A stretch of 64,000 nt of DNA from Leptolyngbyaceae cyanobacterium JSC-12. Lineage in GTDB: Bacteria; Cyanobacteriota; Cyanobacteriia; Leptolyngbyales; Leptolyngbyaceae. The stretch's first letter is position 1; each line of letters starts with the position of its first letter. The position numbers were made by a program, and so were the translations under genes. Location of the stretch: the NCBI GenBank assembly GCA_000309945.1, contig CM001633.1, positions 5,321,174 through 5,385,173 on the forward strand. Reading direction: 5' to 3'. Positions 20,074-51,032 of this stretch are shown in pieces. Under the pieces are notes generated by a model that saw nothing but the letters and a program-made list of their open reading frames with translations, did no database searches and was not told the origin of the DNA.

Positions 20074-21748
<1,675 letters not shown>

Positions 21749-33725: not shown

Positions 33726-35051
33726 ATGATGGGACGGCAGAAAATAAGAATGGGTGCAGTGGCAGCAGGTGGCTTGTTACTTCTGGGGTTAGCAAGTTGG
33801 TTGCGGCTTGCACAAGTAGAGCCAAGTTGGGCAAAGCCATCAGAAAATGCACGTCCTAAACTGGTAAATAATCAATCTCTGAATGTTTCTCCTCGTCAAC
33901 AGGTTCCCAAAGTGATGGCTCAACGTTCTACCACAATCAATCCGCAACTGGTGAGTGCGAATACTCGCTTTGGGTTCAAGCTATTTTCAGCGATCGCAAA
34001 CCAGGATGCCAACAAGAATGTGTTTGTATCGCCGTCAAGTGTGGCGATCGCGCTGGCAATGGTCTACAACGGGGCGGCTGGCGAAACCCAGCAAGCGATC
34101 GCGCAAACCCTAGAGGTACAAGGCATGAGCCTGCAAGCGCTGAACCAAGCCAATGCCGAATTGAAAAAATTGCTGGAAAATCCTGATCCGCAAGTGCAAC
34201 TCGCGATCGCCAACTCGCTTTGGGCACAGCGAGGTGTTCCCTTCAAACCAGAATTTCTCCAGAACAATCGCCAATTTTATGAGGCAAAGGTGACTGAACT
34301 CAACTTTGCTGATCCTCAGTCAGTTCCAACAATTAACGGTTGGGTTAGCCAAAATACACGCGGCAAAATCAACAAAATTGTAGACCAACTCAGCCAGGAT
34401 GATGTGATGGTGCTGATCAATGCCATCTATTTCAAAGGCAACTGGTCGCGACCGTTTGATCAGCAGAAAACGACTCAAAAGCCGTTCTATTTAGTCAATG
34501 GTGGCTCTAAGCAACATCCCATGATGGCACAGCAAGGCGAATATCGCTATGCCGATACAAATCTGTTTCAGGGGGTGATGCTACCCTATGGCGAAGGGCG
34601 ACGTATGAGCATGGTGATTTTGCTGCCTAAGAAAACATCCAGTCTAGCTGAACTTCAGCGTAACCTGACGGCTGAAAATTGGGAACAGTGGATGACTCAG
34701 TTCCGCAATCGTCCAGGTTCAGTGCAAGTTCCTCGGTTTAAGTTAGAGTATGATGTTGAACTCCGCCGCATTTTGTCGCAAATGGGTATGGCAAAAGTAT
34801 TTACGGATGGCGCGAATTTTGCAAACTTGAGCCAGGTGCCAACCAAAATTAATCGGGTGAAACACAAGACATTTGTGGAAGTAAATGAAGAAGGCACTGA
34901 AGCCGCTGCTGTTACTTCGCTTGAGATTCGTGCAACTGCTGCAATTCCAACCGAGCCGTTCCAGATGACGGTCGATCGCCCATTCTTCTGCGCTATTCGC
35001 GATAATCAAACTGGATCCATTCTATTCATGGGATCAATTGTGAACCCCTAG
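33726..35051 (+). CDS. Secreted serpin (protease inhibitor)
   Basis: A 441-residue serpin with an N-terminal signal or anchor (IRMGAVAAGGLLLLGLASWL, then WAKPS) and a ~50-residue linker. The serpin body starts near residue 78 (ANTRFGFKLFSAIANQDANK) with NVFVSPSSVAIALAMVYNGA, VLINAIYFKGNWSRPFD and FVEVNEEGTEAAAVTS. The hinge Glu388-Glu-Gly-Thr-Glu-Ala-Ala-Ala fits inhibitory serpins, which trap the protease covalently. Counting 17 residues from the hinge puts Thr404 at P1; the nearby Arg402 is another candidate. The strand after the loop, PFQMTVDRPFFCAI, is typical. The next gene downstream encodes a secreted caspase-like CHAT protein. Confidence 0.95.
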   Translation: MMGRQKIRMGAVAAGGLLLLGLASWLRLAQVEPSWAKPSENARPKLVNNQSLNVSPRQQVPKVMAQRSTTINPQLVSANTRFGFKLFSAIANQDANKNVFVSPSSVAIALAMVYNGAAGETQQAIAQTLEVQGMSLQALNQANAELKKLLENPDPQVQLAIANSLWAQRGVPFKPEFLQNNRQFYEAKVTELNFADPQSVPTINGWVSQNTRGKINKIVDQLSQDDVMVLINAIYFKGNWSRPFDQQKTTQKPFYLVNGGSKQHPMMAQQGEYRYADTNLFQGVMLPYGEGRRMSMVILLPKKTSSLAELQRNLTAENWEQWMTQFRNRPGSVQVPRFKLEYDVELRRILSQMGMAKVFTDGANFANLSQVPTKINRVKHKTFVEVNEEGTEAAAVTSLEIRATAAIPTEPFQMTVDRPFFCAIRDNQTGSILFMGSIVNP

Positions 35052-35391: not shown

Positions 35392-36810
35392 ATGCAACCG
35401 ATTCAATTGCCCCGTGGATTGGTACTTGCTGCGTTATTTGCAGCCATCTCTGGTTCAATTGTGATTTCTACCAAGGGTGTATCTGCCAAAGTTGCGATCG
35501 CCCAACCTGTTCAACAAACTGCCTCCATTCAAGAAAAGCTAAAGCAGCCTGCTTCTAAACGGTTAAATATCGAGCACTTAGTGAAAGCACTCGATCAATC
35601 TGATGTGGAAGATGCCATTCGACAGGTAGAACTGGGTTGGAAGAAACAATTTGAAGATTATTACCAGGGGCAGCTCACGAGCCAGTATTTGAGCCTGGAG
35701 CAGATGATGCGATCGCTAGAACGGTTGCATCGGTTAACAGGTAAGAAAACGGCTCTCGTCTATGCGATTCCAACGCCCACCCACCTGGAACTGATTCTGG
35801 TTTCACCCACAGGCAAACCTATTCATCGCCGCATTACCCAGGCAAAACGAACTGCCCTATTAGAGACTGCACAAATCTTCCGCATGGGAGTTGTAGATTC
35901 ATTGTCTCGGTCGCAAGACTATTTGCCTGCCGCCAAACAATTGCATCAGTGGCTTATTTCTCCCCTGGAGCCAACCTTGAAAGCGGAGGGGATCGATTCC
36001 TTAATTTTCTGTTTGGGCACTGGTTTGCGCAGTTTGCCAATGGCAGCCTTGCATGATGGCGATCGCTTCTTAGTCGAGAAGTATAGCCTCGGAATCATCC
36101 CCGCGTTCAACTTACTTGATCAACATCCTGCAGTGTTGCAAGGGGTACAAGTTTTGGCAATGGGAGCTTCTGAGTTTCAAAATCAGCCGCCACTGCCTGC
36201 CGTTCCTACTGAACTGATCGCCGTCTCTGATGCCTTGTGGCAGGGTGATTCATTGCTCAATCAAGATTTTACGGTTGCCAATTTAAGAGCTAAACGCGCT
36301 AAAACACCGTATGGCATCGTACATTTAGCAACCCATGCGGAGTTTCAGCCAGAATCAGTAAATGAGTCGTTTATTCAGTTTTGGGATCGCAAAGTGCGCA
36401 TCAATCAACTGCGGGAATTGGGATTGCGAGTTCCAGTTGTGCAGTTATTGGTGTTAAGTGCTTGCCGAACAGCATTGGGAGATCCCCAGGCAGAATTGGG
36501 TTTTGCAGGATTGGCGGTGCAATCGGGCAGTAAGGCAGCATTAGCTAGTTTGTGGTCAGTAAGTGATGCGGGAACTCTGGTGCTAATGACGGAGTTTTAC
36601 CGTCAATTAAAAACTGCTCCCATCAAAGCAGAGGCTTTGCGGCAGGCGCAACTGGCAATGCTAAAACAGCAGGTGAACTTAAGCGCCAACTTGGCGAGGC
36701 GTTCTGGTAATCGGGTACCGTTGTCACCGGAAATTGCTGCTTATGTGCAAAACAATTTGTCACATCCCTACTATTGGGCAGCCTTTACGATGATTGGAAA
36801 TCCCTGGTAG
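35392..36810 (+). CDS. Secreted CHAT-domain (caspase-like) protein
   Basis: A 472-residue clan CD protease-like protein. The signal peptide (LVLAALFAAISGSIVISTKG) is followed by a helical region at about 50-110 and the CHAT domain at about 190-470. The catalytic dyad can be placed: His315 in VHLATHAEF and Cys358 in LVLSACRTALGD, with FAGLAVQSGSKAALASLWSV after it, all standard for CHAT. The C-terminus HPYYWAAFTMIGNPW is the usual CHAT ending. CHAT proteins cleave partners in signalling or death pathways. It lies 340 bases behind a serpin gene and 36 bases before a sigma-like gene. Confidence 0.93.
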   Translation: MQPIQLPRGLVLAALFAAISGSIVISTKGVSAKVAIAQPVQQTASIQEKLKQPASKRLNIEHLVKALDQSDVEDAIRQVELGWKKQFEDYYQGQLTSQYLSLEQMMRSLERLHRLTGKKTALVYAIPTPTHLELILVSPTGKPIHRRITQAKRTALLETAQIFRMGVVDSLSRSQDYLPAAKQLHQWLISPLEPTLKAEGIDSLIFCLGTGLRSLPMAALHDGDRFLVEKYSLGIIPAFNLLDQHPAVLQGVQVLAMGASEFQNQPPLPAVPTELIAVSDALWQGDSLLNQDFTVANLRAKRAKTPYGIVHLATHAEFQPESVNESFIQFWDRKVRINQLRELGLRVPVVQLLVLSACRTALGDPQAELGFAGLAVQSGSKAALASLWSVSDAGTLVLMTEFYRQLKTAPIKAEALRQAQLAMLKQQVNLSANLARRSGNRVPLSPEIAAYVQNNLSHPYYWAAFTMIGNPW

Positions 36811-36846
36811 TCAATAACCGGGATGGGATGTAGAAATAGGGGAATT

Positions 36847-38124
36847 ATGCGATCGCGCCAAACCTTGATCGAACTCTTTTCGACCTTCCTGCGATTGGAA
36901 GACGATCGCGCTACTGGTTGGGCAACCGACGCTCGCCTCCGCCGCAGCATGGAGCACTGCCTAGAAAGCATTCCAGAATCCACAACATCAGAAAACTTTT
37001 GGGCAACATACTGGCACAAGCGATGGCACGAGGAGGCAGGAGGCAGAAAAAGAGATGGGGAAGATAGGGAAGAAATTCAAAATTCAAATCCTCTACCCTC
37101 CCGACCCTCTCCTCCTCTGCCCCTTTCCCACCTCTCCGCCTATCTTCAGGAAACCTGCTACTGGTGTGCCCACAAAATAGTTTCTCGCCTGGAAGAAGGA
37201 CAATATCAGCTATCAGATTGTTTTCAGGTGGCGATCGCAGCGGTACCGAAGATTCTTAAGGCATTTGATTCTGACCAGTTACCCAGCCTCAAAACTTACG
37301 CCAATACAGCTTTTGGCAATATTATTCGGGATGAGCTACGGCAACGGCGGGAAGTGGATCGCTGTAATGACTGGGGTTTGTTGCTGAAGTTAAGTCGCAA
37401 ACAATTGACTGAAGCGTTGCAGGCGGCTGGATTATTGCCAACCGAAGTGGACACACATCTGCTGGCATGGCATTGCTTTACCGATACCTACATTCCCAAA
37501 AAATCACCCGGATTACGACAGCTTATGGCTCCTGATGCAGCAACCTGGAACGCGATCGCCCAGCGTTTTAAGCAGGATCGCTCAACGTTGAATACGCCTA
37601 ATTCAGAAGCCAGCCCGCAGCAGATAGAACGATGGGTTATTGCCTGCGCCAGTCGAGCACGGTCCTATCTATATCCAGCTATTACTTCACTAAATGCCCC
37701 TCGATTGGGACAGGAATCAGGCGAAATCCAGGATGACTTACCCCATTCAACCAATCATTCTCTGCTAACTGAACTGATTGCAGCAGAAGAAAGTCAGGCG
37801 CGCCAAATGCAACAAACCCAGGTTGAAACAGTGCTCAAAGATGCTCTTGCCAACCTGGAACCAACTCTGCAAGAATTGCTGCAACTTTATTACCAGCAAG
37901 GACTGACCCAGCAGCAAATTGCTCAGCATCTCAACCTTCAGCAATACACCGTTTCTCGCAAACTGGCAAAAGCTCGCGAAAAATTGTTGTTAGGATTAAC
38001 CCGTTGGAGCCAGGCAACCTTGCATATTGCGCCCACCTCAACCGTGGTTAAGTACATCAGCATTGCACTAGAAGAATGGCTGCAAGCCCATTACCAGGCT
38101 GATAGTAATAGCCATGCTGGTTAA
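36847..38124 (+). CDS. Sigma-70-like factor of the CHAT/DUF1822 cluster
   Basis: A 425-residue protein. Region 2-like part: LPSLKTYANTAFGNIIRDEL and RQRREVDRC at about residues 150-180. Region 4-like helix-turn-helix at the C-terminal third: LEPTLQELLQLYYQQGLTQQ, QIAQHLNLQQYTVSRKLAKA, REKLL. The ATG at 36847 with AGGGGAA before it is preferred to one at 36823. An in-frame repeat (37028-37140) adds about 37 low-complexity residues between the N-terminal helix and region 2. It probably directs polymerase to its own cluster, but this is inference; the promoter is not known. Confidence 0.82.
   Translation: MRSRQTLIELFSTFLRLEDDRATGWATDARLRRSMEHCLESIPESTTSENFWATYWHKRWHEEAGGRKRDGEDREEIQNSNPLPSRPSPPLPLSHLSAYLQETCYWCAHKIVSRLEEGQYQLSDCFQVAIAAVPKILKAFDSDQLPSLKTYANTAFGNIIRDELRQRREVDRCNDWGLLLKLSRKQLTEALQAAGLLPTEVDTHLLAWHCFTDTYIPKKSPGLRQLMAPDAATWNAIAQRFKQDRSTLNTPNSEASPQQIERWVIACASRARSYLYPAITSLNAPRLGQESGEIQDDLPHSTNHSLLTELIAAEESQARQMQQTQVETVLKDALANLEPTLQELLQLYYQQGLTQQQIAQHLNLQQYTVSRKLAKAREKLLLGLTRWSQATLHIAPTSTVVKYISIALEEWLQAHYQADSNSHAG
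37028..37140. repeat. In-frame repeat inside the sigma-like gene
   Basis: Purine tract AGGAGGCAGGAGGCAGAAAA and on to about 37070, core AAATTCAAAATTCAAATCC (37072-37090), pyrimidine tract to 37140 (CTACCCTCCCGACCCTCTCC). Encodes EEAGGRKRDGEDREEIQNSN then PLPSRPSPPLPLSHLS. The layout and sequence style match the decarboxylase insert. Confidence 0.8.
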
Positions 38125-38133
38125 GGAGTACCT

Positions 38134-39312
38134 ATGAGCTTCATGTTCGAGACCATCACCAACTTCAAATTGGACATCCCACCCGATGTTCATCAAGCAT
38201 CCTGGGAGGATGTTCAATCTGTTTCTTATCCTGTTGCCAGGTGGAATCGTTATTTGAACGATGTCTGCTCAAAAACTGTTTTGCCCTGGCTACAGGAAGA
38301 ACAATCACCAAATGCCATGCTCTGGTCGCATACCGCTTCCGGACTATGGGAACTGGTACCCGGAACAGTGATTGATTTTGGCAACAAACGTCTGGTTTGG
38401 CTCCCCGAAAAGACATTGGATGTCAGCGAATTGCGAGTTCCGCAGGAGTGGGTAGATACCCCCGACTGGGCAGGTGATTATTTTTTAGCAGTTCAGATTG
38501 AACCTGATGATTTATGGCTGCGTGTTTGGGGCTACACAACCCACCAGCAACTCAAACAATTCGGCAGCTATGACGATCGCGATCGCACGTATTGTATTGC
38601 CGCCGAGCATCTGATACAGGATTTGAGCGTCCTCTGGGTAGTACAACAGCTTTATCCCAACGAACCGACTCAAGCAGAAGTCGCAGCCTTGCCATCCTTA
38701 TCTGCCACCCAAGCCGAAGAGTTGCTCGTACACCTGAGCCAGCCAGCAGTTTTGCAACCTCGTTTAGCTGTCCCGTTTGAGCAATGGGCGGCTTTGTTAC
38801 ACAACGACAACTTGCGACAACGACTATTGGAATTGCGCCAGAATATATCGACGGTTCAAACTTGCCCAGTGCCACTTATTACCTATTTGGGGCAATGGTT
38901 ACACAATCAATTTGATGCGGGTTGGCAAACTCTGGAAAGTTTGCTGGAAGACGAACCTACTCTTGCATTTAACGTGCGCCAAACAACCGACCTCAACGAA
39001 GTAGCCGTGCGACGTGCTAAACTCCTCCGCTTCCCAAACCATTCCGTGTTACTGCTGGTTGCGATCGCACCCGAAGTTGATGGACGATTCAGTGTGCGTG
39101 TCCAGGTTCGCCCCGCGGAGCGATCGCAATATTTGCCCCAAGATCTTCGTCTGACGCTACTCCTGCCGAGTGGCGAACGGGTGCAAACTGTCCAAGCTCG
39201 TGAACAAGATAATCTAATCCAGCTCAAACGGTTCAAATGTCCATCTGGTGCTCAGTTCAGCCTAGAGGTCTTGTTCACTGAAACCCTGTATATGGAAGAG
39301 TTTGTGGTTTAA
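38134..39312 (+). CDS. DUF1822 family protein
   Basis: A 392-residue cytosolic cyanobacterial protein, 9 bases behind the sigma-like gene and so co-transcribed. DUF1822 features: the polar N-terminus FKLDIPPDVHQASWEDVQSV, GTVIDFGNKRLVWLPEKTLD, WAGDYFLAVQIEPDDLWLRV and a C-terminal beta-rich part (VRRAKLLRFPNHSVLLLVAI; SGERVQTVQAREQDNLIQLK). No catalytic motif. DUF1822 genes recur beside sigma-like, CHASE2 and DUF928 genes in cyanobacteria (from general knowledge), so it is likely a regulator or adaptor of that module. Confidence 0.88.
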   Translation: MSFMFETITNFKLDIPPDVHQASWEDVQSVSYPVARWNRYLNDVCSKTVLPWLQEEQSPNAMLWSHTASGLWELVPGTVIDFGNKRLVWLPEKTLDVSELRVPQEWVDTPDWAGDYFLAVQIEPDDLWLRVWGYTTHQQLKQFGSYDDRDRTYCIAAEHLIQDLSVLWVVQQLYPNEPTQAEVAALPSLSATQAEELLVHLSQPAVLQPRLAVPFEQWAALLHNDNLRQRLLELRQNISTVQTCPVPLITYLGQWLHNQFDAGWQTLESLLEDEPTLAFNVRQTTDLNEVAVRRAKLLRFPNHSVLLLVAIAPEVDGRFSVRVQVRPAERSQYLPQDLRLTLLLPSGERVQTVQAREQDNLIQLKRFKCPSGAQFSLEVLFTETLYMEEFVV

Positions 39313-39375
39313 ATTTTTCTTCGGTTTTCTCTGTCCTGGCAGGTATAAACCTGCGCCTACCTGTTTCCCTTCACG

Positions 39376-40822
39376 ACTTGGCAAGTTACCCAGAAAGGAA
39401 AAAGATAAGCAGAAAATGTAGGAGACGTTAGCCGTAGCCGTATCATGCTGCCCTTTGTCGCTGTGCCATCGACGATTGCTCAAGAGTTTGGGAAATATCG
39501 AGACCTGTTCTGCCGAGGCGCAGGCTTTGAGCAGGTGAGTCGCTATGTGACCGGATTGCTGTTGAGTGAGAACAAAACCTTGCAAGGGATTGCCGGACAA
39601 TGGGTAGCAGGTGGGGAGGTCGGCGGACGAAGAGCGATGCACGCAGCGGTGTTTGAGGCGGGCTGGAGGAGTTCAGAGTTAATGTCCCATCATCGTGCTG
39701 TGATAGCCAAAGAGCATCAGGGGCGAGGGCGAGAAGTCATCAGTCTGGATTGGACGCTCAGCCATCACGATTGGGGCAAGCAGATCTTTGGGGTGAAGCG
39801 ATCCTATGATTATGTGGAACATCGGATGAGTTGCTTTCAAACGGTGGTGACGGCGACGATTGCGAACCGCCACCTAATTGATGGGATTGACGTGGTGGTG
39901 CAGTTTCCAGATTTTTCAGTGGCAGAACGGGAGTATCTGAAGGTGACGGCAAAATCCCACTATGACGATTTAGACCAAGTGCGAGAACGACTGATTGAGA
40001 TGTTGCATTATCACAAGAATCGATTGGAGTATCGCAAACGCACCGAGATTGCCGTCGAGATTGTGCGCCAAGTGGAAGCGGAAGGACAATTTCCCACCGC
40101 CGATTATGCGTTTGACAATGGGGTGTTGACTGTTGAGTTAACCACCATGATTGAGTCCGCAGGAAAACACTGGGTGAGTGAAGTTGAAAGTTCTCGCAAC
40201 ATCTTGTGGAATGACCAATGGCAACGGGTAGATGCGATTGGTTAGAACTCAGAATCCATCACCCAGAGAGCTTTCGCCCGATTCAAGTCACTTGCCGCAA
40301 CGGCGAAACGAAACCGATTTGGGCATTTACCAAAGTCGTGCGCCTCAAGAAGTTTGGACGCAAGCGATTGGTCATCGTCCACGAGCAAGCAGATTTACAA
40401 GACCCACCTCGCTTCCTGCTCACCGATGCGTTGCATTGGGAAAGTGGGCGAGTCATGCAGACTTGGAGTTATCGATGGTCCTGCGAGGTCTTTCATGAGG
40501 TGAGCAAACAGCACACCGGGCTAGAGTCGGCTCAGGTGCGGAACGAGGAAGCGGTCAACCGTCACTTCCGTCTTAGTTGCGTGGCGCAGTCGATTCTGCA
40601 ACGGACTGCCTGTTCTGGCGCACAATCTGAACGATTTGAGTTTGCTCAAGGCAAGCAAACGGTGGGACAGAAGCTCTATACCCTCACTCGTCAAGCCTTT
40701 GATGATTTGCTGCAATTCATTGTGACGCGATGTTCTCACGGACATACAAATGAACAGATTTTACAAGCTCTCCTCCCCAGTTGATTGGCGATCGTTTTTT
40801 CTACTTCGGTAACTTGCCAAGT
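39376..40822 (+). mobile_element. Insertion sequence with DDE transposase, 15-bp inverted ends
   Basis: Perfect terminal inverted repeats ACTTGGCAAGTTACC (39376-39390) and its complement (40808-40822) bound a 1447-bp element. The flanks (CACG / TGTG) are not an obvious target duplication. It is inserted between the DUF1822 and CHAT-CHASE2 genes, in the same orientation. The transposase is of the IS4/IS701 type and is broken. Confidence 0.88.
39445..40784 (+). pseudogene. IS4/IS701-type transposase, frameshifted
   Basis: Two overlapping frames make one protein: 39445-40245 (265 residues) and 40218-40784. The first has REVISLDWTLSHHDWGKQIF (first catalytic Asp) and DYAFDNGVL (second Asp); the second has YRWSCEVFHEVSKQHTGLES with the catalytic Glu. 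The switch needed lies at about 40230-40247, where the first frame stops after RVDAIG. There is no A-run or other clear slip site, so a disabling frameshift is more likely than a programmed one. The element may still be mobilised by a helper enzyme. Confidence 0.85.
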
Positions 40823-40889
40823 TGTGTCCCTTCCCTATTTCCCTGATTGTCCCCAACCCCCTAACTTCTAACTCCTCTACCCCTTCCCC

Positions 40890-43232
40890 ATGAGCTACCT
40901 AGTTGTGCTAAATCTAGGCAAAGGCGATTGGCAGTCTGGTTTACCCACCGTAATTGCCCAATTGTGGGATGAGCATAACCCAACGCCCATGCAATTTACG
41001 GGCAGTTTGCCGCCCATGCTAGCACTGAAAGAACTCTACCAGCAGTGGCAGGCAGTGTACGAAGCAGTGTATGCCAACTTGGGATGGCGGCGATCGCGCT
41101 CTGCATTTGAGATTGAAGTAGACGACCTCACTCACGTTTCCGATGCGGAATTTCGCGAGTTGTGCCAGCAGTTACAGCAAGCAATGAACCATTGGCTCAA
41201 TGCAGAAGCATTTCGTAATATCGATCGCCAATTGAGAACTCGTCTTAGTCCTGATCAGGAATTACGGCTGATTGTGGTGGCAGAAGATCTCGCCCTATTG
41301 CGTTTGCCCTGGTGCCTCTGGTCATTGCTGGAAGACTATCCCCAGGCAGAGATTGCGCTGAGTTTACCAGAATATATTCGTCCCGTGAAAATCACCCACT
41401 CAAAGCCCAAAGGCAAAGTGCGCATTCTGGCGATATTAGGCAATAGCGAAGGAATTGACATTGCCAAAGATCAGGAACTATTGAAACGGTTGCCAAACGC
41501 TGACTTGACCTTCTTGGTGGAACCACACCCCAAAGATCTGCATCAGCAGTTGTGGGAACCAGGTTGGGATGTGTTGTTCTTTGCCGGACACAGTTCCAGT
41601 CAGGGTACGGGACGTATTCAAATTAATCATCACGATCGCCTGACGATTGAAGAACTCAAGTATGGACTCCGAACCGCGATCGCCCACGGCTTAAAGCTGG
41701 CAATTTTCAACTCCTGCGATGGGCTAGAACTGGCGCGAGCCTTAGCCGATCTCAGCCTGCCCCAGGTGATTGTGATGCGTGACCCCGTTCCCGATCGCGT
41801 TGCTCAAGAATTTTTGAAAGGGTTTTTGACCGCGTTTGCCAGTGGCACATCTCTTTACGGCTCTGTGCGCCAAGCCCGCGAGAAGTTGCAAACATTGGAA
41901 ACTGATTTTCCCTGTGCCACCTGGCTGCCAGTGATTTGTCAGAATCCAGCAGAAACGCCCCCCACTTGGCAAGAATGGAACAACAAAACCTATGTATCCT
42001 GGCGATTTCCCACCTGGCGAGAGTGGCAAACTATTTTCCTGAGTGGATTCGTAGCTACGGGATGCGTCATGGGTGGGCGCTGGTTGGGCTGGCTACAACC
42101 GCTGGAATTATGGGCGTTCGATCACCTGATGCAAATGCGTCCTGCCGAACCCCCAGACAATCGCCTGCTTGTAGTGACTGTTACTGATCACGACATTCAG
42201 GCGGAAGGAACAAAAATGCGGCAAGGTTCCCTCTCAGACAACACATTGAATCAACTTATTCGCACCATCGAAGATCAGCAGCCCGCCGTAATAGGGTTGG
42301 ACATATACCGCGACACACCTGCCACCGAGCCACAACTGGCAACCCGCCTGCGGCAGAGCGATCGCCTGATTGCCATCTGCAAGCGTCCTGAAGCAGAAGC
42401 TGACCCGATTGGGATTTTGCCACCGCCGGAAGTTTCCCCTGAACGAGTCGGCTTTAGCGACTTTGTAGTAGATGAGGATGGCGTGATTCGTCGCCATTTA
42501 ATGTACCTGCCCTCCAATCCCACTTCTCGTTGCACTGCCACCCTTGCCCTCAGCCTGCAACTGGCGCAACGCTATCTGCAAGCTAAAGGAGTAGCGATTG
42601 GCTTCACGCCTGAGCACAATTTGCAAATTGGCGACACGTTGTTTCAACGCCTGCAACCCCGCACCAGTGGCTACCAACCCGTGGATGCAGGCGGTGGACA
42701 GGTTTTGTTGAACTATCGAGCAACGCTTACACCAGGAGCGATCGCCCAACAAGTCACTGTGGGGCAAATTCTGGCAGGGCAGGTGAATCCCCAGGTGTTC
42801 AAAGAGCGGATTGTGCTGATTGGGGTAGCGGCTCCCTTTAGCGGTGGTGACTACTGGCAAACCCCCTACGGCAAAGCTCGTACTGAGCAAGTACCAGGAA
42901 TCATCCTTCACGCTCAGATGGTGAGTCAGATTTTAAGCGCAGTGCTGGATAAACGCCCTTTGCTCTGGGTCTGGCCATTTTGGGTGGAAGTACTATGGGT
43001 GGCAAGTTGGGCGATCGCGGGGGGACTGCTCACTTGGACATTTCAGCGGCAAATTTTGTGGCTCTGTGTTGCTGGAATTGTTGTCATGATCATCGTGGTG
43101 GGGATTTGCTGGATTGTTTTGCTTCAAGGTGGATGGGTTCCTCTGTTACCACCGCTATTTAGTCTGTGGTTGACAGGTGGCAGCGTGCTACTGATAATGT
43201 CTTCTGATAAAAAGCGGCATATTTATGATTAA
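40890..43232 (+). CDS. CHAT-CHASE2 membrane protein
   Basis: A 780-residue fusion. Residues about 1-360 carry a caspase-like CHAT domain with His234 in LFFAGHSSSQG and Cys276 in LAIFNSCDGLEL. A membrane helix at about 380-400 (WQTIFLSGFVATGCVMGGRW) leads to an extracytoplasmic CHASE2 sensor domain at about 405-690 (DHLMQMRPAEPPDNRLLVVT; IRTIEDQQPAVIGLDIYRD; VPGIILHAQMVSQILSAVLD). Two or three C-terminal helices follow (WVASWAIAGGLLTWTFQRQI; IVVMIIVVGICWIVLLQGGW). No kinase or cyclase domain, so output must go through the CHAT domain. It overlaps DUF928 by 8 bases. Ligand unknown. Confidence 0.92.
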   Translation: MSYLVVLNLGKGDWQSGLPTVIAQLWDEHNPTPMQFTGSLPPMLALKELYQQWQAVYEAVYANLGWRRSRSAFEIEVDDLTHVSDAEFRELCQQLQQAMNHWLNAEAFRNIDRQLRTRLSPDQELRLIVVAEDLALLRLPWCLWSLLEDYPQAEIALSLPEYIRPVKITHSKPKGKVRILAILGNSEGIDIAKDQELLKRLPNADLTFLVEPHPKDLHQQLWEPGWDVLFFAGHSSSQGTGRIQINHHDRLTIEELKYGLRTAIAHGLKLAIFNSCDGLELARALADLSLPQVIVMRDPVPDRVAQEFLKGFLTAFASGTSLYGSVRQAREKLQTLETDFPCATWLPVICQNPAETPPTWQEWNNKTYVSWRFPTWREWQTIFLSGFVATGCVMGGRWLGWLQPLELWAFDHLMQMRPAEPPDNRLLVVTVTDHDIQAEGTKMRQGSLSDNTLNQLIRTIEDQQPAVIGLDIYRDTPATEPQLATRLRQSDRLIAICKRPEAEADPIGILPPPEVSPERVGFSDFVVDEDGVIRRHLMYLPSNPTSRCTATLALSLQLAQRYLQAKGVAIGFTPEHNLQIGDTLFQRLQPRTSGYQPVDAGGGQVLLNYRATLTPGAIAQQVTVGQILAGQVNPQVFKERIVLIGVAAPFSGGDYWQTPYGKARTEQVPGIILHAQMVSQILSAVLDKRPLLWVWPFWVEVLWVASWAIAGGLLTWTFQRQILWLCVAGIVVMIIVVGICWIVLLQGGWVPLLPPLFSLWLTGGSVLLIMSSDKKRHIYD

Positions 43233-44055
43233 AAACTTTTATTTATCCTCGTGGTTGCTCACTGGCTTTCTGACCATTTGCAGCGGGAGTAGCACCGTAT
43301 TCGTCATGCAATCTTCTCAGATGGCTTATGCTAACGAATCTGCGCCTATTCACTTTAACTCAGGAAACTTACAAGTTCCAGCTAGCATTGGCGAACCGAA
43401 AGGACGCGGGGCAGGTGGGCGACGGGGATGCAATGCCGATGATGCTGAAGACCAACTTATTCCACTGGTGCCAACGCTAGAGACAAGCGATCGCACCATC
43501 CGTTGGGGGTTGACCACAAGTGCCTATCCAACCCTCTGGCTTCATAGCCCGAAAGGGTTCCAAAATGGTGCACTTGTTTGGCTGAGCGTGTCTGATTCAA
43601 CGAGCAATGTACTGTATCGAATTCCGTTTCAAGTTCCCAAAACCACCAGTGGAGTGCTACAGTTTGTTGTGCCATCTACAGTGACTCCTCTACAGCTCAA
43701 TACCCCCTACCGCTGGCAGCTTACCGTCTATTGCAACTCTGGTAACGACAACTTAACTAACCTGACATTTGATACCCCTTTTACTATCATGGGGGGGATT
43801 CAGCGAGTAATTCCATCAACTGAGTTAAAACAACAATTAGCGATCGCAAAAACTCCATTAGAACAAGCAATTTCCTATGCTAAAAACAGCATCTGGTATG
43901 ACTCGCTAACTTTATTGGGGAACTCAATTCAGAATAAATCCGCACCAAACAACGACACTTCTCGTGCCTGGATAGAATTGCTGCAACAAGTTGATTTAGG
44001 GAAATCTGCCTCTGCCACATTTATCAAATGTTGTACACCTCAAAAGAGTCAGTAG
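43225..44055 (+). CDS. Secreted DUF928 protein
   Basis: A 276-residue exported protein. The signal-like start is MIKNFYLSSWLLTGFLTICS with a later AYA cleavage candidate. The mature part has GRGAGGRRGC, the Arg/Gly-rich DUF928 hallmark, then TLWLHSPKGFQNGALVWLSV, TPLQLNTPYRWQLTVYCNSG and a C-terminal helical half (KTPLEQAISYAKNSIWYDSL). It overlaps the CHAT-CHASE2 gene by 8 bases and is surely co-translated. Being outside the membrane like the CHASE2 domain, it could be its ligand or partner; that is inference. Confidence 0.9.
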   Translation: MIKNFYLSSWLLTGFLTICSGSSTVFVMQSSQMAYANESAPIHFNSGNLQVPASIGEPKGRGAGGRRGCNADDAEDQLIPLVPTLETSDRTIRWGLTTSAYPTLWLHSPKGFQNGALVWLSVSDSTSNVLYRIPFQVPKTTSGVLQFVVPSTVTPLQLNTPYRWQLTVYCNSGNDNLTNLTFDTPFTIMGGIQRVIPSTELKQQLAIAKTPLEQAISYAKNSIWYDSLTLLGNSIQNKSAPNNDTSRAWIELLQQVDLGKSASATFIKCCTPQKSQ

Positions 44056-44260: not shown

Positions 44261-46816
44261 ATGACATCTACAGCGGTCAAAAGCCATTCGGCGGTTTCAT
44301 TGAAAGCTCCCCTCTCTGGCTATTTGGTGCCCTTAGAAACCGTACCAGATCCGGTTTTTGCCCAAAAAATGGTTGGAGACGGAGTTTCGATTGATCCAAC
44401 TGATTGTGTCTTGTGTGCTCCTTGCGATGGTGAAGTGATTCAACTTCATCCAGCAAATCATGCAGTCACAATTAAAACGGGTAATGGGTTGGAAGTTTTG
44501 ATGCACATTGGGCTGGATACAGTTGCCCTAAAAGGACAGGGATTCACGCCTAAAGTGAAAGTGGGCAATCCCGTTAAGATGGGTGACCCACTGATTGAGT
44601 TTGATGCAGATTATGTTGCTCTCCATGCTAAAAGTTTGCTGACGCAGATTGTGATTACAAATAGCGATCGCGTCTCCCAATTCCTGCCTTACTCCGGTTC
44701 TGTGATAGCAGGAGAAAGCGTGATTTTAGAAATGGCGTTAGATGGCAGTAAACTTCCTACTGAAATCCAAACTGGAGACAGCCGAACCTCGGAGCCAATT
44801 GTAGTCCCCAATCCCACAGGTCTCCATGCCCGTCCTGCGGCTGTGTTGGCAAATCTAGCCAAAAAATATAAGTCAGAGATTCGGCTGAAATACAACGATA
44901 AACAGGCAAATGTCCGTAGTGTGGTTGGACTGATGGGGCTAGAAATTAGCAAAAATGCTCGAGTGCAACTGGTTGCAACTGGAGAGGATGCCAAAGCCGC
45001 CATTGCTGAACTCTCCAATGCCATCCGAATGGGATTGGGAGAAGAAGGGGCAACTCCCATCTCCGCACCCGCCAGTGTTGCCCATCTTACTGTTACCGCC
45101 GAGCCTGCTCCTCGTCCCCGTTCTGCCGATCCCAATGTGATTTTGGGCGTGGCTGCTTCGCCAGGGGTAGCAGTTGGCAAAACCTTTCGCCTGAGTCGTC
45201 AAGAGATTACCGTTGCCGAGACGGGGGGGGCGCCCAGAGAAGAACAACGCAAGCTCGACCAGGCAGTGGCTCAAGCAAAGCTAGAAATTGAAGCACTACG
45301 GGCAAAAGTGCATGGACAAAAAGATGCAGATAAGGCGGCAATCTTTGCTGCTCACCTAGAACTTCTGGAAGACCCGGAGCTAATTGATACAGCAGATAGC
45401 GCGATCGCCAAAGGAAAAAGTGCCGCCTTTGCCTGGAAACAAACATACGCTCATCAGGCTGATCAGCTTGCCCAACTCAAAAATGAACTGCTGGCTGCCC
45501 GTGCGAATGACCTGCGCGATGTGGGTGGGCGAGTGTTGCGAATTTTGACTGGGATTTCTGTACAACAAACCACCTATCCTGAGCAATGCATCTTGCTGGC
45601 GGAAGATCTCACTCCCTCTGATACTGCCACGATGGATCAGGGCAGAGTTCTGGGCTTCTGCACCATTGGCGGTGGCGCAACCTCCCACGTGTCGATCCTG
45701 GCACGGTCAATGGATATTCCTGCGATCGCAGGAGCCGAACCTCGAATTTTGGATTTGCCGGATGGCACCCCTGTTATTCTGGATGGCAGCAAAGGTACTC
45801 TGCGCCTGAATCCCACCCAGCCGGAAATAGATGCCATCCAACAGCAACAAATTCGTTTGCAAGAGCAGCGTCAACGAGAACTTGCCTCTGCTCATGAACC
45901 TGCTATTACTCAAGACGGGCTGAGAATTGAAGTCGTCGCTAATATTGGCAGCAAAGCCGATGTTGAAAAAGCAATTCCGCTGGGCACTGAAGGCGTTGGG
46001 CTACTGCGATCTGAAATTGTGTTCATGGATCGCCCAGTTGCCCCCACAGAAGATGAACAGGCAGATTTGTACGGCACGATCGCTCAACGTTTAGGCGATC
46101 GCCCCTTGATCATCCGCACTCTAGATGTAGGCGGGGACAAACCCCTTGCTTACCTACCTATTCCCCACGAAGAAAATCCCTTCCTGGGTGAACGGGGAAT
46201 ACGCCTCGGTTTCGATCGCCCTGATATTCTTCGTACCCAACTCCGGGCAATCTTGCGAGCTTCCAAGCAAGGCAACGTCAAAGTCATGTTCCCCATGATC
46301 GCCCGCATCGAAGATTGGCGCATGGCAAAAGGACTACTGGATGAAGAAACTCAAAGGCTTGGAGTTCCCCCAATCCAGACTGGAATTATGGTGGAAGTTC
46401 CTTCTACTGCAGCAATTGCCGATCAATTTGCCAGGTATGTAGACTTTTTCTCCGTCGGCACCAATGATCTAACCCAGTATGCCCTGGCAATTGATCGCGG
46501 ACATCCCAAACTTGCCGCCTTTGCTGATGCACTCAACCCCAGTGTTCTCAAACTCATTGGCATGGCTGCCCAGGCTGCCAATCGGCATGGTAAATGGTGT
46601 GGCGTCTGTGGCGGTATTGCCAGCGATCCTCAAGCAGTTCCTATCTTGATTGGGCTAGGCGTGAGAGAACTCAGCGTCAGTATTCCCACCATTCCCAGCA
46701 TTAAAGCCCAAGTACGGCGGCTATCCCTGGCAGAGTGTAGACGTCTCGCAGAAAAAGCGATCGCTCTAGACACTGCTGCAGAAGTGAGAGATCTGTGTCC
46801 GATCTCAGAAGGATAG
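44261..46816 (+). CDS. PTS EIIA(Glc)-HPr-enzyme I fusion
   Basis: A three-domain, 851-residue phosphotransferase carrying phosphate from PEP to a sugar permease. Residues about 10-155 are EIIA of the glucose type with His67 (ANHAVTI) and the phospho-His82 ([11 protein letters not shown]). Residues about 170-255 are HPr with His189 in [19 protein letters not shown] and a Ser-46-like site in VRSVVGLM. Residues about 283-851 are enzyme I with His476 in [29 protein letters not shown] and [14 protein letters not shown]. The order equals that of NagF-type proteins of proteobacteria. The EIICB gene follows 47 bases later. All needed His residues are present. Confidence 0.95.
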
Positions 46817-46863
46817 AAGTCACTTCTATTGCTCCCATTCACCATCGAGGTCTATCTTTACTT

Positions 46864-48795
46864 ATGTGGAAAAAAGCCTTTGCCTTATTGCAGCAGATGG
46901 GCAAAGCCCTGATGTTGCCTGTATCGGTGCTTCCAGTAGCAGGTTTATTGCTAGGACTGGGTAATGCTCGCTTGATTGAATTGCAAAATCTAGCGAACGG
47001 CAAGATTGCCAATGCCACGTTTTGGTGGTTACCAGAATGGTTAGCTACCATCATGAAAGCGTCTGGAGATGCAATTTTTGCGGCACTGCCTCTGATTTTT
47101 GCGATCGCGGTTGCCATTGCCTATACCGGAAACGACGGGGCATCTGCCCTGGCAGCCACAGTGGGCTTTGTGGTGTTCATTGCGGCTCTGGGCGCAGTAG
47201 GCTTATCACGGGGATTTGTAACAGAAGACCAGGTCAAAACCTTAATCGAGCAGGGAAAAGAAACTCCAAACATCTGGATGAAACCAGTGTTAGGCATTAT
47301 GACACTGGATACAGGCGTATTTGGTGGATTAATCATTGGCTGTATTGCGGCTTACTTGTTCAATAAATTCTTTCGCATCAAACTTCCGCAATATCTGGGA
47401 TTTTTTGCCGGAAAGCGATCCGTTCCTATTATTACTGGGGTAGTAGCGATCGCAGTAGGGATGGGGATGAGTGTTGTTTGGCCACCGCTTGGTGGCGGGA
47501 TTAACCAATTTGCCAACACAGCGGCAAGTGGGGACAATATTCCCCTGGCGGCTGGAATCTATGCTGTGATTGAGCGATCGCTGATTCCCTTCGGGCTGCA
47601 CCACGTCTGGAATGTGCCTTTCTTCTTCCAGATCGGCTCCTTCACAGATCCCGTCACTGGACAACTGGTGCGAGGCGATATCAATCGTTTCTTTGCTGGC
47701 GACCCCGCGGCTGGGATCTTGGGCGGTAGCTATTGGTTCAAAATGTTTGGGCTTCCGGCTGGGGCAATGGCAATCTGGCATAGCGCGAAACCAAAGAACC
47801 GAGCTGCCACTGGCAGTTTAATGGTGTCCGCCGCCCTCACCTCTTTCCTCACGGGTATTACTGAACCTTTAGAATTTTCCTTCTTGTTTGTAGCACCGTT
47901 GCTTTATGCCATTCATGCCTTGATGGCTGGGGTCTGCGGGTTTCTGTTTACCTTCCTGGGTGGCAGAATGGGCTTCACGTTTTCACAAGGATTCATTGAT
48001 TTTATTTTGTTTAATCAACTCGGCAACTGGAACAGTCAACCCGGAGTATGGAAGCTGATTGTTGGCGGTGGAATTGTTGCTGCAGCAGTTTACTACTTTG
48101 TATTTCGCTTGGCAATCCGCACACTTGATCTCAAAACTCCAGGACGAGAAGCTGACGAAGCAGAAGCAGGTATTACGCCCACAACAGTCAGCACTGGGAC
48201 AGAACTTGCACGAGAACTAGTTCGTGCCTTTGGTGGTCGCCATAATATCGCTGTGCTGGATGCCTGCATTACTCGATTGCGAATTACCGTAAACGACAAA
48301 AGCAAAGTCAGCAAAGCTCGTCTCAAAGCATTGGGTGCTTCCGGGGTATTAGAAGTGGGAGACAGCGTGCAGGCAATTTTTGGTCCCCGTTCTGAAAACC
48401 TTAAAACAGATATGGCTGAATACTTACAAGTAGCTGGCTCCGAAGCTGATGAACCCTATCGAGCAGATCCAGCGGTTGCCGCTGCGGAGACAGAAGCGGC
48501 TGCAATATCAACGATACAACGCGATCTAAATGCGGCTAAAAAAATGCAAGCTGCGATCGCGGCGTTGGGCGGTTCAGCTAATATTTGGGAAGTCAATGAG
48601 ATTGCCCTGACCCGCTTACGACTCCAATTAGGGAATGGAAATATGGTGGATGAAGACGCTCTACGCGAGGCAGGAATTGAAGCAGTCATGCATCTTCCTG
48701 GTAATATTCTACATCTAATCGTCGGACTCAATGCTGACCAATATGCAGATGAAATAAAGAAGCAAATACTAAAAGCCGGAGTAGCAAGTCGATAA
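46864..48795 (+). CDS. ptsG: PTS glucose-type permease EIICB with extra EIIB-like domain
   Basis: A 643-residue membrane permease that takes up and phosphorylates a hexose. The start is ATG at 46864 ([20 protein letters not shown]); a GTG frame at 46795 would overlap the upstream gene. The EIIC domain closely resembles enterobacterial PtsG, with [56 protein letters not shown] and [20 protein letters not shown]; the LDLKTPGRE linker follows. EIIB-1 carries phospho-Cys468 in [13 protein letters not shown] second EIIB-like domain at about 548-643 has Ala581 in place of the Cys ([11 protein letters not shown]). Glucose is likely; N-acetylglucosamine cannot be excluded. Confidence 0.94.
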
Positions 48796-49799: not shown

Positions 49800-51032
49800 T
49801 TAAGCATCGTTCAACGCAGCAATTCCGGGCAGAACTTTTCCTTCCAATAATTCCAGGCTGGCACCGCCACCCGTAGAAATGTGGCTCATCTGGTCAGCCA
49901 GCCCTGCTTTTTCTACGGCGGCTACAGAATCTCCCCCCCCGATGATGGTTGTGGTTCCGGTCTTCGTAAGTCCTGCTAGGGTTTGAGCAATTCCTAGCGT
50001 ACCTGCAGCAAATTTGTCAAACTCAAACACGCCCATTGGACCATTCCAAATTACAGTTTTGCAATCTGCCAGGGCTGCCTGGAAGACTTTGACAGAGTCT
50101 GGACCAATATCCAACCCCATCCAGCCATCGGGAATCGCTTCAACACTCACCGTTTGAGCATTAGCATCAGCTGCAAAATTATCAGCTACTACTACATCTG
50201 TGGGTAACAGTAGTTCTACGCCCTTCTCCTTTGCCTTTGCTTCTAGAGTCTTCGCGAGTTCCAGAAATTCATCTTCCACCAGTGATTTGCCAACGCTGAG
50301 TCCCCGTGCTTTGTAGAAGGTGAAAATCATGCCACCACCAATAAATAGCTTGTTCACCTTTTCCAAGAGGGTTTCGATCACAGTAATTTTACTGGACACT
50401 TTAGAGCCACCAATAATTGCTGCCAGAGGGCGCTGTGGCTCTTCGATCGCGCTTTGCAGATACTTGAGTTCCTTTTCAATCAAAAACCCAGCCACCGCTG
50501 GACTGAGAAACTTAGTGACCCCTTCTGTTGAGGCGTGAGCACGGTGAGCCGTTCCAAATGCATCATTGACATATAGATCTGCATTAGCAGCCAGTTTTTG
50601 TGCAAATTCTGGGTTGTTTTTCTCCTCTTCTGGATAAAAGCGCACATTTTCCAACAGTAAGACATCACCGTTGTTCAAACTGCTGACTTTGGCAGCTACT
50701 GTATCTCCAATACAATCTTCTACAAAGCCAACAGGCTTACCCAAAACCTCTTCCAACCGCTTAGCCACAGGCAGCAAGCTGTTTCCTTGCCGCACAATAG
50801 TGATTTCTCCAGTTTCCTTATTCTTTTTAATCGGACGACCCAAGTGGCTCGCTAAAATTACCTTGGCACCTTTGGAGGTCAGGTCTTGAATCGTGGGAAG
50901 GGCTGCCCGAATTCGAGTGTCGTCTGTAATGTTGCCTTGTTCATCAAACGGGACATTAAAATCTACCCGGACAAACACTCGCTTGCCAGTTAAATCAGCA
51001 GCCGATAAGTTTGCTACAGTCTTTTTGGACAC
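49800..51032 (-). CDS. pgk: Phosphoglycerate kinase
   Basis: Cytosolic enzyme of glycolysis and the Calvin cycle. GTG start at 51032, with AGGAGG at 51041-51046 (minus strand) 8 bases before it. Seen: [74 protein letters not shown], and [17 protein letters not shown] with [13 protein letters not shown] (nucleotide site). At 410 residues it is about 10 longer than usual; the extra residues fall in the loop after LGRP ([17 protein letters not shown]). A universal stress gene starts divergently. Confidence 0.98.

Follow-up and report, generated by a model that had tools for sequence, protein, structure and literature searches.

The phosphotransferase operon of JSC-12

Within a window of 64,000 nucleotides from the genome of Leptolyngbyaceae cyanobacterium JSC-12 ("the window" being the whole stretch of DNA analysed), we found two adjacent plus-strand genes, separated by 47 bases (46817-46863), that encode a full PTS phosphoryl chain: EI, HPr, EIIA, EIIB and EIIC, each with its active residues (Table 1). 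The open reading frame of 851 residues matches, in order, the Pfam profiles PTS_EIIA_1, PTS-HPr, PEP-utilisers_N, PEP-utilizers and PEP-utilizers_C (E 3e-21 to 1e-104), and that of 643 residues matches PTS_EIIC (E 4e-72) and, in two stretches, PTS_EIIB. The earlier note on this DNA had described a complete glucose-type PTS made up of an EIIA(Glc)-HPr-EI fusion with all phospho-histidines and a PtsG-like EIICB with the phospho-cysteine, 47 bases away; the Pfam and NCBIfam domains and every catalytic residue bear this out, with His67/His82, His189 and His476 in the fusion, Cys468 in the permease, and coordinates that match to the base.

Table 1. Features of the operon and two glycolytic genes in the window
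Feature	Position	Strand	Basis
Enolase	20381-21748		confirmed
pgk	49800-51032		recognised from translation only
Gene 1: EIIA(Glc)-HPr-EI fusion, 851 aa	44261..46816	+	five Pfam domains in order; TIGR01417 above cut-off
EIIA(Glc) domain, phospho-His82, partner His67	44297..44671	+	PF00358 E 2e-45; both His in 37/37 fusions
HPr domain, phospho-His189; Ser220 at the regulatory serine position	44792..45025	+	PF00381 E 1e-24
EI domains, phospho-His476, Cys783	45140..46795	+	TIGR01417 556 bits, residues 294-845
Gene 2: EIIC-EIIB-EIIB' permease, 643 aa	46864..48795	+	TIGR02002 644 bits vs cut-off 591.8
EIIC membrane domain; predicted glucose contacts E237, R238, H246, H247, N250, K293, T333, E334, F373	46864..48123	+	aligned to E. 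coli PtsG and NagE; contacts per PMC11393339
EIIB1 domain, phospho-Cys468 (codon 48265-48267)	48184..48438	+	PF00367 and alignment to PtsG Cys421
EIIB' domain, Ala581 (codon 48604-48606) replacing cysteine	48529..48792	+	EIIB homology by profile and structure-sequence search; Ala in 45/46 relatives

The arrangement is of the NagF/NagE type, an EIIA-HPr-EI fusion beside an EIICB gene, a likeness in layout and not in substrate. The earlier note had called it NagF/PtsG-like; the same layout is found in Paraburkholderia, Caballeronia and Azospirillum replicons. The gene pair stays adjacent in nearly all relatives, and the phospho-residues are kept across 37 fusions, save for one unreadable residue at the EI cysteine. 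In the nearest relative (G002), extra sequence (L005:7486-8000) places EI and EIIC about 500 bases apart, compared with 47 in the window; the fusion of Paraburkholderia PGU19 (L078:2844-5954) carries two tandem EIIA domains ahead of HPr-EI. No common upstream motif was found in G000, G002 and G001, whose upstream regions align poorly.

A chance match or a broken gene is ruled out by the domain scores and by dN/dS ratios of 0.02-0.07 for EIIA, HPr, EI, EIIC and EIIB1 (G000 vs G002; rough values, with dS near saturation). EIIC is the most constrained part, and judged from these ratios the operon is under strong purifying selection. Contamination is also ruled out: the genome is a single contig, its HIP1 pattern is native, and the operon occurs in other complete or near-complete genomes. 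The HIP1 sites (GCGATCGC) that the earlier note had seen in the operon number nine in 4.5 kb, and the whole window holds 87 where shuffles predict 0.64; the composition of the operon is thus native.

Enolase and pgk do lie in the window, as that note had remarked, but their supposed relevance falls away, since they stand about 22 kb and 1 kb off, outside the operon. Directly upstream of the operon (35392-44055) is a cluster of CHAT, sigma-70 region 4, DUF1822, CHASE2-CHAT and DUF928 genes, broken by a DDE transposase split across two overlapping frames (39445-40784). A full-length serpin (serine protease inhibitor) gene is present at 33726-35051 (Pfam E 9e-124).

Elsewhere in the genome we found neither a second EI (other matches are partial and 27-31% identical) nor a further HPr or EIIC, and a fructose-type PTS is absent. 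No protein of the genome exceeds the sugar-porter cut-off, and no clear GlcP was found; an MFS glucose permease was considered and rejected, the sole strong Sugar_tr match (149.9 vs cut-off 237.8) being nearest to phosphate transporters.

Substrate of the permease

The best reading of the operon is a glucose PTS with a transport function, to which we give a probability of roughly three in four. Phosphate from PEP would pass to His476 of EI, His189 of HPr and His82 of EIIA, all within one polypeptide, then to Cys468 of EIIB and to glucose bound in EIIC, yielding glucose 6-phosphate inside the cell. We infer both glucose as the main substrate and the transport activity from sequence comparison, and the substrate is the weak point of the reading.

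Cryo-EM of E. coli PtsG places glucose in contact with E202, R203, H211, H212, N215, K257, T297, E298 and F337 (PMC11393339). In our alignment the window permease is identical to PtsG at all nine positions, as is each of the 41 Glc-type EIICs from cyanobacteria. In place of E202 and K257, the pair that contacts O2, Asn and Met are found in E. coli NagE and in three NagE-like proteins of cyanobacteria; the window permease has Glu237 and Lys293 here, as in PtsG. O2 is the position of the acetamido group of GlcNAc. The PtsG-like Glu/Lys pair therefore favours glucose, and the profile scores point the same way: the permease passes the glucose-specific IIBC model TIGR02002 (644.4 bits, cut-off 591.8) and fails the N-acetylglucosamine model TIGR01998 (461.5 bits, cut-off 553.2).

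An amino sugar, GlcNAc or glucosamine, could instead be the main substrate, as in the Burkholderiales NagFE-type systems that share this layout, with a glucose-like pocket wide enough for both kinds of sugar. Gene neighbourhoods lend this some weight. The gene order in G201 is EI, nagB, nagA, EIICBB', and nagB and nagA lie downstream of the permease gene in G018, G135 and G150, which suggests amino-sugar uptake in those four cyanobacteria; the EIICB of Azospirillum B510 is flanked by nagA, a SIS-domain protein, a GntR regulator and murQ. NagB scores above its cut-off in 19 of the 48 genomes with a Glc-PTS and in 9 of the remaining 342 (Fisher p 4e-13; hand counts, uncorrected for kinship). A single substitution, combined with the loss of its regulator, let Cupriavidus NagE support glucose use (PMC10778655). 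In most other genomes having both nagB and nagA the two stand alone, and in G144, G168 and G214 nagB and nagA, or nagB, adjoin a NagE-like permease instead. JSC-12 itself has nagA and a glucokinase, and NagB was not found in its genome, so glucose is the better guess here; together with the O2-contact pair and the score below the GlcNAc cut-off, this leaves an amino sugar as an improbable main substrate. Given the glucokinase, glucose could also enter unphosphorylated.

The NagE-like EIICB genes of G214, G144 and G168 (L083:4003-5778, L085:5703-7223 and L097:3380-5194), each with nagB close by, likely represent a GlcNAc PTS alongside the glucose-type one.

A second EIIB domain that lacks the active cysteine

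The permease ends in a second EIIB domain, EIIB' (about residues 556-643), which lacks the active cysteine and was overlooked in the earlier note. The window copy alone scores 24.1 bits, just under the Pfam cut-off of 27; the profile of residues 556-643 matches solved EIIB chains (E 2e-11), and EIIB' matches EIIB1 in profile-profile comparison. In a structure model of EIIB1 and EIIB' the order of helices and strands repeats (pLDDT 78), and a Foldseek search with this model returns E. coli EIIB as top match, mainly via EIIB1. At the cysteine position 45 of 46 relatives, drawn from cyanobacteria, Burkholderiales and Azospirillum, have alanine; the exception is a glycine, in Novosphingobium. Constraint on the domain is weaker but real (dN/dS 0.13, G000 vs G002, dS near saturation).

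Since EIIB' cannot carry phosphate on cysteine, its role is probably structural or that of a docking module. More tentatively, it might stay unphosphorylated at all times and act as a docking or decoy domain, either reporting the state of the transporter to a regulator or competing with EIIB for EIIA; it would then define a distinct EIICBB' permease subfamily common to cyanobacteria, Burkholderiales and Azospirillum. Alternatively, the system as a whole might serve chiefly to sense the supply of PEP and sugar, EIIB' being an always-unphosphorylated docking domain and transport coming second. The retention of a cysteine-less EIIB' across phyla and the solved complex of E. coli EIIB with the Mlc regulator (entry 3bp8) are in keeping with such a role. 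The transport residues are complete, however, and EIIC is under the strongest constraint; no regulator conserved next to the operon was seen in the neighbourhoods of relatives, and HPr kinase was not found in the genome. We consider a predominantly sensory function unlikely, and prefer the glucose transporter.

Distribution and origin

According to a survey of 2008, cyanobacteria lack the PTS. In our sample of the class, PTS_EIIC was found in 78 of 390 genomes and EI in 87 of 390, so that the earlier note's statement that most cyanobacteria have no sugar PTS is true of most sampled members. By hand count, 48 genomes have a strong Glc/NagE-type EIIC score, and most of the others score more weakly and fructose-like. 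The frequency depends strongly on sampling, a differently drawn sample of the phylum giving 5/386, and all hits listed fall in the window's class. In this survey the PTS, once reported absent, is an old feature that a minority of cyanobacterial lineages share. A literature search returned no published cyanobacterial glucose PTS, though an earlier report may exist; a fructose-type IIC is mentioned in an Azolla symbiont (PMC10095879). A separate clade of cyanobacterial EI fusions (L048-L058, L065) belongs mostly to family f32, and PTS_EIIC was not found in those genomes in the same sample.

The earlier note had held that JSC-12 acquired the operon from a heterotroph. Burkholderiales operons do have the same domain order and short spacing, as a recent gain from a proteobacterial heterotroph would predict, but the best matches on plasmids reach only 49-54% identity, while those in cyanobacteria reach 62-88%, and composition and HIP1 content are native. 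In trees built by quick searches (SH-aLRT support only; few outgroups, mostly plasmid records and E. coli), the 41 EIICs of cyanobacteria group as a single clade (support 100) and 35 Glc-type cyanobacterial EIs as another (support 99), spanning at least four families. These trees, limited outgroup notwithstanding, reject a recent import into JSC-12, which we regard as very improbable, and the claim of acquisition by this strain is not supported. For a nesting of the cyanobacterial clade inside proteobacterial sequences, which the earlier note had thought would support transfer, the branch support is 64 and two alternatives have AU p values of 0.23 and 0.33, with a thin outgroup; the deep cyanobacterial clade that it had set against its own view is largely what the trees contain.

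An older entry from proteobacteria is plausible because some of them have the same layout; its direction and sister group are not fixed by the trees, which do not separate Paraburkholderia/Caballeronia/Azospirillum from gamma-proteobacterial PtsG as closest outgroup. The operon genes have long belonged to cyanobacteria and are retained in a minority of lineages, and the transporter gene appears also to have moved between cyanobacteria.

Separate histories of transporter and EI

This last step is proposed from a comparison of EIIC, EI and RpoB trees in 30 genomes. The RpoB and EI trees place the window's genus beside G013, a member of its own family, whereas in the EIIC tree its partners are G018 and four family f24 genomes (support 100). 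In AU tests the RpoB-like grouping is rejected for EIIC (p 5e-5), and the grouping of the EIIC tree is rejected both for EI (p 5e-5) and for RpoB (p 1e-9); the groupings were chosen after viewing the trees, which makes these p-values optimistic, and the log-likelihood gaps are large (132-150). On this evidence the transporter and EI genes have different histories, which is new here, and replacement of the transporter gene between cyanobacteria, in either direction, would fit best. EI also departs from RpoB in places, since a clade made up of the window's family is likewise rejected for it; elsewhere among cyanobacteria some EI genes have likely been exchanged or lost. The histories of EIIC and EI offer a clean case for an idea raised in a 2008 study, namely that PTS transporters are more mobile than the phosphoryl chain.

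Comparison with known systems

The operon is ordinary in kind, unusual in its host, and older and more widespread than the earlier note held. With a conserved glucose PTS, some oxygenic phototrophs would take up sugar at the expense of PEP, a central carbon metabolite, and its distribution names strains in which mixotrophy is testable. Mixotrophy and sugar sensing, which the earlier note had suggested, may be among its uses. The conserved cysteine-less EIIB' and the mismatch between transporter and EI trees are of specialist interest.

Relative to E. coli PtsG (EIICB-Glc), the JSC-12 permease keeps the order EIIC-EIIB, the nine contacts and the phospho-cysteine, and is about 50% identical across its first 522 residues. 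It differs in its extra cysteine-less EIIB' and in neighbouring a fused EIIA-HPr-EI, whereas ptsH, ptsI and crr are separate genes in E. coli. The NagF/NagE-like operons of Paraburkholderia, Caballeronia and Azospirillum encode this pair of proteins with their domains in the same order, cysteine-less EIIB' included, but these are about 50% identical and fall outside the cyanobacterial clade; in Azospirillum the genes are divergent and, in B510, lie beside nagA. The fructose-type PTS of other cyanobacteria of the same class likewise has a fused EI, although that EI belongs to a separate clade and its EIIC is distantly related. Cyanobacterial GlcP/Gtr has the same presumed job, the entry of glucose (PMC10515406), and performs it as a permease without phosphorylation.
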